Positions 7,059-38,596 of a stretch of DNA of 64,000 bases are shown in pieces. The stretch is from a candidate division SR1 bacterium (GTDB lineage: Bacteria; Patescibacteriota; Gracilibacteria; Absconditabacterales; Absconditicoccaceae). Numbering within the stretch: the first letter of the stretch is position 1; the number at the start of each line of letters is the position of its first letter. A program made the position numbers and the translations under genes. The notes under the pieces were generated by a model that searched no databases, had not been told where the DNA came from, and was given only the letters and a program-made list of their open reading frames with translations. The stretch spans positions 124,001 to 188,000 of the forward strand of contig JAPLUT010000006.1 of assembly GCA_026397475.1 (NCBI GenBank), read 5' to 3'.

Positions 7059-8000
7059 ATGCTATTATCCTGAAAAGAATTGTCTGTTTCTCTCAAACAA
7101 GAACTTATCAAAAAAAGAGCTAAATTTTTTGCTACGAGAAATGTGTATGTGGCTATTATCTTTCTTGGTGATAACGCATCATCTGCTACTTATGTAAAAC
7201 ATAAGAAAACGTATGGAGAAGAAATAGGTCTGCCGGTGATCGTCTTTGGACAGAATCATAATGCTGAATACGATAGAAATCAAGCGGGGAAATTCGACGA
7301 TGTCGGGATTTATATCAATCAAAAATATGATAGTATCTGAAAAATAATGGAACTGATTAGATATCTCAATCAGGATAGTGAATGCGTTTGAATTATGATT
7401 CAACTTCCTTTGCCTGAAATGTTTGCAGAGTATAAAGTCCAGATGCTGTCTGCTATTACTCCTACAAAAGATATCGATGGATTGGGTGGAGTGTTGACGG
7501 GATTATCTTCAATAGATTTGATTGATTTTACTCCTGCCACACCAAAAGCTGTTTTTTATCTTCTTGATCATTATGGATTGTGAGATATGAAATGAAAGAC
7601 GGTTTCTATTATAGGACAGAGTAATGTTGTCGGGAAGCCATTAATCCTTGACTGTATCAAAAGGGGAGGAGCCGTTGCGTCATTTAATGAAACGAACGCT
7701 CTCGAAGAAATAAAAACGATGACTAAGCAATCAGATTATATTATTTCTTGTACGGGAAAAGTTCATCTCGTTGATCAAAGTTTTTTCCGTGATGATACAA
7801 CACAAATCGTTGTGGATGTAGGGTACGGACATATTGAATGAAAGCCTGTCGGTGATGTGAATATTGAAAGTATTAAAAATAAGGTCGCTGCGTATACGCC
7901 GGTTCCTGGAGGAATAGGACCGCTTACGGTTGCGTGTTTGTTTGATAATGTTTTTGTATTGCAGGAGTATCAGGAGGTGTTGAAGGCGTATAAATTATAA
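7059..8000 (+). CDS. folD: Bifunctional methylenetetrahydrofolate dehydrogenase/cyclohydrolase FolD
   Basis: 313 residues. FolD interconverts 5,10-methylene-, 5,10-methenyl- and 10-formyl-tetrahydrofolate in the cytosol, supplying one-carbon units for purines and for formyl-Met-tRNA (an fmt gene lies at 34-36 kb). Visible family motifs: an N-terminal SGK whose Gly is TGA, YVKHKK with the catalytic lysine region, [22 protein letters not shown] (dinucleotide-binding loop) and [11 protein letters not shown]. About seven glycines are TGA-encoded. The start at ATG 7059 is chosen because only it includes the conserved N-terminal 'xSGK' strand; a TTG at 7080 would lose it. The length is close to the usual 280-300. 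Confidence 0.93.
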
Positions 8001-17868: not shown

Positions 17869-17871
17869 GTA

Positions 17872-17967
17872 CCCCACCCTAACCCTCCCCACTACGTGGA
17901 GAGGGAACTACGCCCCTCTCTAAGAATTGGAGAGCCCACATTCGTGGATAAAGGGAAAGGGGTGAGG
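17872..17967. repeat. CCCCACCC...GGGTGAGG terminal-inverted-repeat element
   Basis: A 96-base non-coding element: C-rich start CCCCACCCTAACCCTCCCC, internal GAGAGGG and CCCCTCTC arms, and G-rich end AAAGGGAAAGGGGTGAGG. The ends mirror those of the DUF559-carrying element at 34811-35287 (CCTCACCCCCTTTCCCC). It looks like a non-autonomous, MITE-like version sitting just after the PriA-like stop codon. Confidence 0.6.
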
Positions 17968-17981
17968 TAACTAAAATGAAC

Positions 17982-33406: not shown

Positions 33407-33970
33407 TTAAAGTTTTCACATCAAGTCTTCCATTTTTCCTGCTTGTTCTTTTTTTGCTTTTTGAGACAGCTCGTCTTTATCTATAGTTTGAAGTACTGCG
33501 TTCCATCTTTTGAGTCTCATTTCTCTTTCTTGGTCGATAGTGTTCTTCTCATTTTCATCTTCTGCTTTGAGCGCATGAAGATTCATCTGTTCTTCTATAT
33601 ATATTTCATATAATCTTAGAATTTGAAATGATCGTAATTCTGAAACTGTTTTTACTACGCTTTGGTCTCAGCTTTTTACTGCTATGAACAATTCCTTATT
33701 TTCTTTTTTTTCTTCTTTTTTGAGTTCATAATCACTACTAAATGATCCTACAACTAATTGTTCCAATAGATCTCGATCGAAATCGCTTTTGAGTTCTTCG
33801 GGTATTTCGTAGGCTAATGGCTCAAATTTTGAAAGATATTCAGTATACCAAATCTGATCCTTTATATCTCATTGGACAGGACCAAATAAGGTTTCGTATT
33901 TTTCTACGATTTGTTTTTTTTCAGGTTTTTCTCTAAGTTCTTCTACAAATGCTTGAAAATCGAATAGCAT
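33407..33970 (-). CDS. Hypothetical coiled-coil protein, 187 aa
   Basis: Almost entirely helical and highly charged: for example LKKEEKKENKELFIAVK and EQMNLHALKAEDENEKNTID, ending QAGKMEDLMGKL. It starts MLFDFQAFVEELREKPEKKQ. No signal peptide, membrane span or catalytic motif. Two TGA glycines. The family is not recognised. It lies 100 bases downstream of the YidD-Fmt fusion gene on the same strand, so co-transcription is possible. Confidence 0.65.
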
Positions 33971-34070
33971 TTTTGAATATATAAATGGTAAAAATTACAT
34001 TTGTCTTGTTAGTAGTTTATAGATATAATTTAATAATTCAATATAAAGTTCGGCAGGATATACTCAGTTA

Positions 34071-35714
34071 TTATTTCAGATATCAATTCAAGAATTCTTT
34101 CCATTCCATTGCTTTTTTTCCTTCGGGTTTGAGTTGGATATTAAGTACGGCAGGATGTAATTCTTTCCCATTAAACAAAGGAAGCTCATCATTACTATTA
34201 TATGTCGATTCATTTAGTTCTAGGCGTTCTATGATGACTCTTTTGTCATTTAATATAAAATATATTTTCGGCCAAAGAAAGAATGCACGGTATTTGTTAT
34301 AGATTGTTTCGAGAGTATCCGTCCGTGGATTTATTAGTCCAGATTCCTTTTCTATTTTTCCGCAATATGTTGCTTTATCTTCTTTCTGTTTTACTTCTCC
34401 AAGAAGTTTCTTTCCATATTTTCGTAAGGTGTCATTCAAAAATTTTGGACCGATTTCCGTCATCTCTTCAATCAATTCTTTTGTTGTCCACTGAAAGGGG
34501 ATTCTAAATCTCAAAATATCAATCATATCTCCTGTATCCATAGTTGCATCCATTTTCATTATCGTGAGTCCAGTTTCTTTATCATTATTAAGTACTGTAG
34601 ATTGAATAGGTGAGGCACCACGATACTTTGGAAGAAGTGATCCATGGATGTTGATAGGAGCGATCTTTGGGATATCTAAAATCGCTTGAGGGATGATTTT
34701 TCCATAAGCAATAACAACTAAGAAGTCTGGGTTTTTTTCTTTGAGTCGTTCTGCGAATTCTTTTCCTTCTTCTGATTTCTCCGGATGTAATTTGGTCGGA
34801 GTAAAAATTTCCTCACCCCCTTTCCCCCTCTCCTTCAGAGAGGGGTGATTTTCTCCATTATTTTTTATATGTGCTATCTCGGTAAGTATTTTTTCTAAAT
34901 TATCAAAAACATCTTCATTTTTACATCTTAATACTTTGTAACCTAAATGTTCTAGTGTTTGGTTTCTTTCCTTATCAATTATTTTCTGTTCTTCAGTGTC
35001 GTGTATGCCTCAATCTATTTCTAAAATTATTTTATACTCCTCATTATAAAAATCTGCTATATATTTATTGATAGGAAATTGTCTTCTTCGTTTCATTCAT
35101 AGAACTTTTCTATTTCTTAGAATATCTCGTATGATATCTTCTGCTATTGTTGGGTTTTTTCTCATATCTCTTGCAAACTGTACTTGAAGTCCTCATGATT
35201 CTCAGTAAATGTGATGTTTTTTGTATATTTCGTGTACTATCTTTTGCAACTCTCCTTCTCTGAAGGAGAAGGAGTTGGAGGATGAGGAAAATATTTTTTT
35301 TGCTTCTTTTTTTATGATATTTTCATTCATTTCCATCCCTCTTCCTGATGGCTTGTCACACTGAGTTACCACTCCAACTACTTCAAATCTTTTATCTTTT
35401 GTTAGGCCTTCAAGAAAGGGTACGCCGATAGGCGCTGAAGAGAAAAAAACTATACGATAATGTTCAGGGTCATATGTTTTATGCATACTTGCTGTACAAT
35501 GTAAAATTCTATCACTAGCATAAAAAATTCCAGGCCAAAATCCATATCTTTTGAGTACGGAAATGCTGTATTTGCTGCAATGAGGTTCATGAGAACATAT
35601 TCTTCCTTTTAGCCAAAAAGATGGCAATCCCTTGTCTGGTGAAAGCGTATATTGATATATTCTTATCATTCGTATTACAGGAATGGAGAGTATTTTGTTG
35701 AGTTTATTGAACAT
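34071..35714 (-). CDS. fmt: YidD-Fmt fusion (methionyl-tRNA formyltransferase) with inserted DUF559 endonuclease domain
   Basis: 547 residues in one open frame. Residues 1-82 match YidD, which aids membrane protein insertion (IRIYQYTLSPDKGLP, CSHEPHCSKYSISVLKRYG, ILHC). From residue 86 an Fmt enzyme begins (YRIVFFSSAPIGVPFLEGL, VGVVTQCDKPSGRGM) that formylates initiator Met-tRNA using 10-formyl-THF. At residues 143-302 it is split by a DUF559 domain (ARDMRKNPTIAED, RRRQFPINKYIADF, ILEIDGGIH, LGYKVLRCKNEDVF). Fmt resumes with VVIAYGKIIPQ, NIHGSLLPKYRGASPIQ and DATMDTGDM. The insertion lies in the loop before 'P.kL', away from these motifs, so activity could survive. A normal Fmt is about 310 residues. 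Confidence 0.88.
34811..35287 (-). mobile_element. DUF559-coding element with inverted-repeat ends, inserted in frame in fmt
   Basis: 477 bases (159 codons, so frame is kept). Plus-strand ends: CCTCACCCCCTTTCCCCC at the left and GGAGTTGGAGGATGAGG at the right, forming imperfect terminal inverted repeats; inner hairpins CTCTCCTTCAGAGAG and CTCCTTCTCTGAAGGAG flank the coding part. On the minus strand it encodes a DUF559 (PD-(D/E)XK, Vsr-like) endonuclease domain: core Glu-x-Asp in ILEIDGG and a following His. The repeat parts are translated as SSSSNSFSFREGEL and HPSLKERGKGGEE. No clear target duplication is seen beyond AT-rich flanks (AAAATTT / AAAATAT). Confidence 0.75.
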
Positions 35715-35730
35715 TATAATAAGGAATGAT

Positions 35731-35802
35731 ATGAAAAAGCTGTCGAAGTATCTTTTCTATGTGTTTTTGTTTTTGTTATTCTTGGTTGAAAATTCAAGCT
35801 AA
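35731..35802 (+). CDS. Possible 23-residue hydrophobic peptide
   Basis: ATG 35731 is preceded at good distance by AAGGA (35721-35725), one of the better ribosome sites in the window. It encodes MKKLSKYLFYVFLFLLFLVE plus three residues before TAA: a basic start and a single hydrophobic helix, like a small membrane peptide or a leader upstream of holA. It could also be chance. Confidence 0.3.
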   Translation: MKKLSKYLFYVFLFLLFLVENSS

Positions 35803-35848
35803 AATACTACTATTGTTGTAGATGTGTTTATAGTCCAAAATACTTACT

Positions 35849-36850
35849 ATGATTCAAAATATATATTTATTCACTGGACAGGAGACGTATCTCCTAGATA
35901 AAGAGCTCTTGAGACGAAAAGAGAATTTTCTCCAAAAATTTGGTCCTGACAGTATATTCTCATTTAGTTTAGATAATTTAGATATCAGTCAGATAAAACA
36001 AGCGATCTATAGTAGTGGATTATTTACTACCAAAAAACTTATTCTTATCAATGGTTTGCCCTTAGATGCGTCTACTAAACTTGGAGAAGAAAAGAATGAG
36101 GAGTTGCAGATTTTTATTGATGCCCTTATCAAGGCAGAAGGAAAAATTCCTGCAGATTCGCTTATTGTTTTTATTAATTCTACTCCAGATAAAAGGCTTA
36201 AGCTCTATAAGTTTTTAGAAAAAAATGCCATTGTCAAAGAATTTGCCCAACTCAAAAATAATGATTTAGAATGATTTGTAAAAAAAGAATTAAGTGAGTG
36301 TCTCATTGACCATGACACAATTCAGTATTTTCTCACTAAGGTGTGATCAGACTTGTATCGCATTTGGTTTGAGTGTGATAAGCTAAAAACACGAACTCAA
36401 ATTAAACAACAAAAAAAAATAGATGAAGCCATGATCGATTTGGTTGTCTTTTGACAGGTGGAAACAGATTCTTTTGCTTTACTTAAAACATTGTTTGCTG
36501 ACAAGGTCAGAGGAATAGAAATTCTAGAAAAAATTCAGAATGGGGGTGCAGATCGAAATCAGTTTCTTGGGATGTTGTATCGGGCTATGAAATTCTATAT
36601 ATTTATGCTAGATCTTGATGAGTATGGAATTACAGATAGTAAAGAAATTGCTTCGTTCCTTAAAATGAATCCTTGGCAAGTTAAAAATGAATATGCGAAA
36701 ATTTGAGTATTGAAAAGTAACAAAAAAAATATAGAAAATTTTTACAAGGGATTGATAGAACTTGATGCTGGCATCAAGTCTTGAAAATATCCTGATATCT
36801 ACTTTTGGTTGGGAGTAAAAAAATTGATTAATGGGGTAGTAAAAAAATAA
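35849..36850 (+). CDS. holA: DNA polymerase III delta subunit HolA
   Basis: 333 residues. The delta subunit opens the beta sliding clamp within the clamp loader. The N-terminus NIYLFTGQETYLLDKELLRR matches the HolA pattern 'yll.G.e.~l...~l...', followed by ISQIKQAIYSSGLFTTKKLILI ('l.......plF..rrlv.i') and SLIVFINSTPDKRLKLYKFL. The C-terminal helical collar includes DSFALLKTLFADK ... ILEKIQNGGADRNQFLGMLYRAMK, typical of delta. Sequence is divergent but the order is convincing. Four TGA glycines. Followed 27 bases later by a secreted-protein gene. Confidence 0.85.
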
Positions 36851-38332: not shown

Positions 38333-38596
38333 CTATCTTCTTTTAGCTGCAGCTCGTCCTACTAATTTTTTAGGAGCCTTTTTTTTAGCAACCTTTTTTG
38401 CTTTTTTAGCTTTTTTAGGAGCTTTCTTTTTAGCTACTTTTTTAGCTTTTTTAGGAGCTTTCTTTTTAGTTACTTTTTTAGCTTTTTTAGCAACTTTTTT
38501 TTTAGTAACTTTTTTAGGAGCCTTTTTTTTAGCAACCTTTTTAGCAACTTTCTTAGCTACTTTTTTAGCAGCTTTTTTAGCAACTTTCTTAGCCAT
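38333..38596 (-). CDS. Histone H1-like, Lys/Ala-rich DNA-binding protein
   Basis: 87 residues made almost only of Lys, Ala, Val and Pro in repeated AKKVAKK and KKKAPKK units, ending LVGRAAAKRR. This resembles the C-terminal tails of eukaryotic H1 and bacterial Hc1/Hc2-type proteins, which bind and compact DNA or RNA through charge. No folded domain is visible. The DNA is correspondingly repetitive (TTTTTTAGCxxC units), so repeat number may vary. Single-gene unit that shares a terminator with the plus-strand operon. Confidence 0.8.
   Translation of the reverse strand: MAKKVAKKAAKKVAKKVAKKVAKKKAPKKVTKKKVAKKAKKVTKKKAPKKAKKVAKKKAPKKAKKAKKVAKKKAPKKLVGRAAAKRR

Follow-up and report, generated by a model that had tools for sequence, protein, structure and literature searches.

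A YidD-Fmt fusion protein of Absconditabacterales and a candidate mobile nuclease cassette inside its formyltransferase part

SR1 bacteria and Gracilibacteria use genetic code 25, in which TGA is read as glycine. YidD (PF01809) is known as a separate protein of about 75–100 amino acids, and the REPs described so far are linked to a Y1 transposase. Another described system is the Rickettsia palindromic element (RPE), which, according to a review, is a palindromic element of about 150 bp that is inserted in frame into unrelated housekeeping genes, is translated and has no enzyme domain (Ogata 2000, 2002, via PMC10969869). Here we describe an SR1 gene in which YidD is joined to methionyl-tRNA formyltransferase (Fmt) and in which the Fmt part is itself split by a predicted nuclease domain.

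In the window, i.e., the whole stretch of 64,000 nucleotides that was analysed, positions 34071–35714 of the minus strand form a single open frame of 547 codons (547 amino acids; stop codon TAA at 34071–34073) under genetic code 25, and five TGA codons of this yidD-fmt frame are decoded as glycine (table 25), while table 11 fragments it. A preliminary description had claimed that YidD runs into Fmt without a stop, which was borne out by the open frame and by the Pfam and NCBIfam matches. The YidD domain occupies residues 1–84 (35463–35714, minus strand) and matches PF01809 at residues 13–83 with 53 bits (cutoff: 27). It terminates with the usual '..YDP' end of YidD, and strand 1 of Fmt follows about three residues on, with no stop at the junction. 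The first piece of Fmt (residues 85–141; 35291–35462, minus strand), delimited by tblastn to relatives, alignment to solved Fmt structures and a structural model, extends from Rossmann strand 1 to the helix past the GRG loop. The second piece (34074–34807, minus strand; PF00551/PF02911, TIGR00460 and alignment) contains N355, H357 and D393, which we take from E. coli Fmt to be the catalytic residues, and the C-terminal tRNA-binding domain. The fusion protein scored 106.5 bits with Formyl_trans_N, matched Formyl_trans_C at residues 453–545 and passed the curated cutoff of the NCBIfam model TIGR00460 fmt (210.5 versus 201.5 bits). The genome of the window, a draft in eight contigs, has a single YidD and a single Fmt. 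While the fusion proved to be real and order-wide, the two-part reading given in the preliminary description had overlooked a DUF559 domain that lies in frame inside Fmt, appears to be mobile and is specific to this genome at this place.

We searched 59 relatives, mostly metagenome assemblies, with the YidD family, fetched the loci and read their frames under code 25. In the family of the window (Absconditabacterales, SR1), the readable yidD-fmt junction was free of stops in 31 of 31 genomes, including the complete SR1 chromosome CP006913 (RAAC1_SR1_1). When named genomes were scanned with a pattern, mostly the same set came back, several of them SR1/Absconditabacteria and CP006913 among them. 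YidD was truncated by the end of a contig in one family genome (G010), and 4 of the 36 family genomes had no YidD match; Fmt was absent from these genomes as well, the sole exception being a weak partial formyltransferase match in G023. In other families of the class, YidD was separate in all 20 of its loci, with no Fmt match within 1.5 kb of it. When a junction profile was run against 379 genomes across the phylum, both halves were spanned only in the window genome among the matches listed, and the rest matched one part. We conclude that the sole Fmt of Absconditabacterales carries the sole YidD found at its N terminus, with almost no linker between the two. The preliminary description had envisaged that relatives might share this architecture or else carry yidD and fmt apart: the former was present at all 31 readable junctions of the family, and no case of the latter was met within the order. 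Its remark that no described YidD-Fmt protein was known agrees with our search of the open-access literature, in which we found no paper on such a protein.

Since the junction is repeated in 31 genomes, a missed stop or an assembly error at this position is rejected. That an assembly error, a chimaeric contig or a wrong genetic code underlies the gene as a whole is scarcely credible: the window does come from a draft genome, but one of the genomes with the junction is a complete chromosome, which refutes this explanation for the junction, code 25 opens the frame in relatives too, and the insert in Fmt is bounded by exact element ends and has counterparts elsewhere among the genomes.

YidD of the fusion retains S-P, C-x-H-x-P-H-C-S-x-Y, the late Cys and the D-P end, and C40, P44, C46, S47, Y49, C73, D82 and P83 are invariant in 12 aligned relatives. 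In the Fmt part, which was aligned to 1fmt, N355, H357 and D393 are almost invariant and the motif HGSLLPxxRGA is present. Pairwise comparison with congeners gave dN/dS values of about 0.12 for YidD and 0.05–0.11 (about 0.07) for Fmt, which are rough because synonymous sites are near saturation, and dN of the Fmt of the window genome was no higher than between congeners free of the insert. Judged from these sequence comparisons, the YidD and Fmt halves are both under purifying selection. AlphaFold2 predicted YidD (block pLDDT about 82–95) and the two pieces of Fmt (mostly above 90) with confidence, and the best PDB matches of the model were solved Fmt structures. The genome also encodes peptide deformylase (def) and FolD, the source of the formyl donor for Fmt (folD; 7527–7967, plus strand; PF02882, 121.6 bits).

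We propose that the fusion protein would formylate initiator Met-tRNA and that its YidD part would dock Fmt at the membrane, close to the YidC/Sec insertion machinery. A functional link between formyl-Met-tRNA synthesis and membrane insertion had been suggested in the preliminary description. As an account of the whole locus, we consider it probable that it represents a membrane-held YidD-Fmt fusion together with a selfish in-frame nuclease cassette. A serious rival is a fusion without joint function, i.e., neighbouring genes that merged by loss of an ancestral stop codon and were kept by drift in a small genome. One ancestral event would leave just such a nearly linker-free junction that is fixed order-wide, both domains retain their ordinary signatures, and their coupling is something that we infer. 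However, the genes were not re-split in 31 genomes of many genera, and no family genome was seen with one of the pair alone, although assembly gaps make this argument weaker. We therefore hold a fusion by drift to be a real possibility, but lean away from it. Throughout an order of host-dependent bacteria, the fusion physically ties a membrane-protein insertion factor to the enzyme by which the first residue of bacterial proteins is marked, so that a connection of initiation with membrane insertion is testable in Absconditabacterales.

The catalytic domain of Fmt is split in frame by a cassette of 483 bp, or 161 codons (34808–35290, minus strand; residues 143–302 of the 547-amino-acid protein), whose ends, TTTCCTCA...TGAGGAAA, were located by local alignment to the lepA cassettes of congener G003 and by the inverted arms. 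The arm at the 5' end (35254–35295, minus strand; 42 nt) is 76% complementary to the arm at the 3' end (34803–34844, minus strand), and each folds into a hairpin. The cassette is stop-free throughout one frame and its length is divisible by three. It encodes a DUF559 domain, a predicted Vsr/PD-(D/E)XK-like nuclease (residues 178–282; 34869–35183, minus strand), which was recognized by PF04480 (94.3 bits versus a cutoff of 20.6), by the PDB relative 3hrl and by residue conservation. The conserved residues present here are E192, Q212, D221, E232, D234, H238 and D247; E192, E232, D234, H238 and D247 are invariant in 74 DUF559 domains, and D221 is present in all but one. The AlphaFold2 model of the insert was poor (pLDDT about 36–75). 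According to the alignment to structures and the model, the insertion point lies in a turn past the helix following the GRG loop, ahead of the strand that leads to the catalytic NxHGS, and is remote in sequence from the catalytic residues of Fmt.

Among the 31 family genomes, only that of the window has DUF559 in fmt; the fmt genes of its congeners are without the cassette, and congener G001 has another domain at the site. This loop of Fmt tolerates insertion, as five relatives hold other large inserts there: RBBP9-like Ser_hydrolase domains in L036, L049 and L029, a partial RBBP9-like Ser_hydrolase domain cut by the contig end in L051, and an insert with no Pfam match in L043. In G028 (L035, 4500–5300), a free-standing DUF559 gene is located just downstream of yidD-fmt, between two near-identical direct palindromic repeats. 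The window itself contains a short tandem-repeat array at 38366–38593 (units of 12–63 bases, TTTTTTAGCAACC-like), whose minus strand possibly encodes a repeat protein rich in lysine and alanine; tandem repeats near yidD-fmt were considered as a candidate and rejected as unrelated to the gene.

Like inteins and mobile introns, the insert keeps the reading frame of a conserved gene and bears a predicted nuclease, and it might be excised before the protein works. We regard this as very improbable, because the frame of the host runs through the insert without a stop. No Hint or intein splicing family was found in Pfam up to E = 1, and the cassette ends read SSSS...GGEE, with no terminal His-Asn followed by Cys/Ser/Thr. 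A group I or group II intron was also rejected, as there was no Rfam match at the gathering threshold in 33500–36500. With neither a splicing domain nor the end motifs, the DUF559 domain should stay in the protein.

The cassette has close counterparts in an unrelated gene. In a local DNA alignment of the fmt cassette with two lepA genes of congener G003, the aligned region started at TTTCCTCA and stopped at TGAGGAAA, i.e., at the cassette ends, one of the lepA copies being two bases shorter at the TTTCCTCA end. Although fmt and lepA are unrelated, they share a nearly identical cassette that has the same two ends (dN/dS of the fmt copy against the lepA copies: 0.14, a rough value with synonymous sites near saturation). 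The lepA gene of the window genome (G000) is uninterrupted, so the empty sites are reciprocal with G003. The ends of the fmt cassette also occur without DUF559, forming hairpins of about 80–140 bp at four other sites of the window genome, in addition to one half copy. Two genes from different genera, leuS of G001 and rimO of G071, share a second cassette family with 82% identity over 512 bp, and the ends of this family, TACCCCACCC...GGGTGAGGTAA, were recognized by comparison in a short palindromic element with no ORF at 17870–17971 of the window (strand not assigned). We could assign no convincing target-site duplication, and since the empty loops also differ in length, the insertion is not defined to the base in the host sequence. 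Taken together, shared ends, reciprocal empty sites and short copies with no ORF are the pattern expected of a mobile element that is accompanied by short, non-autonomous copies, and we conclude from these alignments that cassettes of this kind have evidently moved between unrelated genes. In lepA of G006 (L181), there is an interruption of about 580 nt near the same region, with stops inside and no DUF559 match.

Across the class, 33 DUF559 domains were read in frame within longer ORFs, mostly housekeeping genes. Thirteen of the 32 DUF559 loci read in the family of the window are of this kind, and their hosts are fmt, lepA (2), leuS (3), rimO (2), mnmA (2), tgt, elp3 and a murC-like ligase. 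The 20 loci read class-wide include uvrC, aroA, murD, elp3, ileS, valS, miaB, recG, ribE (4), sua5, an N-terminal fusion to miaA and others, and most of these hosts use the standard code; they are long-frame matches chosen for their length, so they give no frequency. A Pfam run on 20 of the host proteins confirmed the host domains for most of them, frequently split by DUF559, whereas the murC-like host (L101) and the hosts outside this set were identified by reading only. When 74 DUF559 domains were placed in a tree, those inserted in host genes grouped into a few clades separate from the rest (8 label changes versus 24.5 in shuffles, 0/500), although the deep forks are weak because the tree is built from 108 columns only. 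The inserted clades mix hosts: fmt with lepA; leuS with rimO; and tgt with valS, mnmA, recG, elp3, rimO and murC. The catalytic residues of the inserted domains are invariant save one D221, which together with the dN/dS between the cassettes suggests that the inserted predicted nuclease is under selection while moving. The same two observations argue against a decayed remnant. An anti-phage defence gene was rejected as well, as the nuclease part gave only weak partial matches to DpdF and mREase_II.

In ribE, mnmA and lepA, the insertion regions are similar in different genomes or contigs, yet the tree clades mix host genes. The DUF559 domain of ribE is located between the two lumazine-binding repeats, at a similar place in four genomes of one family (L198, L200, L201 and L202), and this recurrent site might point to site-specific homing. 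The repeat search did not detect a significant inverted repeat for every inserted DUF559. Some aminoacyl-tRNA synthetases of the class have stacked enzyme-domain inserts (loci L203, L190 and L096): DUF559 is accompanied by NUDIX, Ser_hydrolase and histidine phosphatase in IleRS of G162, by histidine phosphatase in IleRS of G116 and by NUDIX in LeuRS of G001.

The distribution of the cassette bears on the question of whether DUF559 is immobile here and was recruited by Fmt for a cell function, e.g., tRNA or nucleic-acid handling. Purifying selection on the insert and the presence of other enzyme domains (Ser_hydrolase) in the same Fmt loop of some relatives would fit recruitment, but the domain is in fmt of only 1 of 31 genomes, a near-identical cassette with the same ends is in lepA of a congener, the cassette ends are also found alone, and there are many unrelated hosts. 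We consider recruitment unlikely.

As a selfish element, the cassette would spread by means of its predicted nuclease and its hairpin ends: DUF559 may cut DNA in or close to target sites, and copying may be guided by the palindromic ends. Copies would persist in indispensable genes only if they landed in frame in a permissive surface loop, and this survival of in-frame loop copies would select for a stop-free, modular cassette. Such a cassette would be tolerated, being stop-free in one frame, a multiple of three in length and a separately folding module in a surface loop. On balance, we favour the view that these elements form a new class: a hairpin-ended, stop-free, in-frame nuclease-domain cassette in conserved housekeeping genes of Absconditabacteria/Gracilibacteria that is kept in the mature protein, with short non-coding hairpins as its non-autonomous partners. 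We found no paper on a mobile in-frame DUF559 element in the open-access literature. The cassette may be seen as an intein-like mobile domain that is never spliced out or as a Rickettsia-type palindromic element that gained a nuclease, and the new class, if true, would amount to an intein without splicing. Judging by this insert, a mobile element that bears a nuclease may be able to reside in essential proteins without splicing, which bears on the origins of inteins and on how enzymes gain inserted domains. Such inserts would also account for synthetases and tRNA-modification enzymes that are oddly large in these genomes.

Compared with known Fmt (TIGR00460; 1fmt/2fmt, 3r8x), the protein shares the fold, the Asn/His/Asp residues, HGSLLPxxRGA and a score over the curated cutoff; it differs in the N-terminal YidD and, in this genome, in the predicted nuclease domain within the catalytic domain. 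Its YidD part has the length, the Cys/Pro signature and the DP end of YidD, but whereas YidD is a separate protein in the other lineages sampled, here the sole copy is fused to Fmt. The cassettes resemble RPE in their palindromic ends and in their in-frame position within the open frame of unrelated coding genes, a likeness by description; unlike RPE, they are about 480–510 bp long and encode a complete predicted nuclease domain. With inteins that contain a homing endonuclease they have in common the in-frame, nuclease-bearing state and the conserved host genes, but they possess neither the splicing domain nor the end motifs. The short ORF-less hairpin copies with cassette ends are shared with REP/BIME-type repeats and MITEs; unlike in REPs, the ORF that goes with them encodes a predicted DUF559 nuclease. 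Free-standing DUF559 proteins (3hrl; E. coli-type PRK09767) have the same domain with the same catalytic residues, and several of them are also located between palindromic repeats (e.g., L035/L118 and L105). They have an ORF of their own, typically of about 115–180 amino acids, whereas the inserted copies fall mostly in separate clades.
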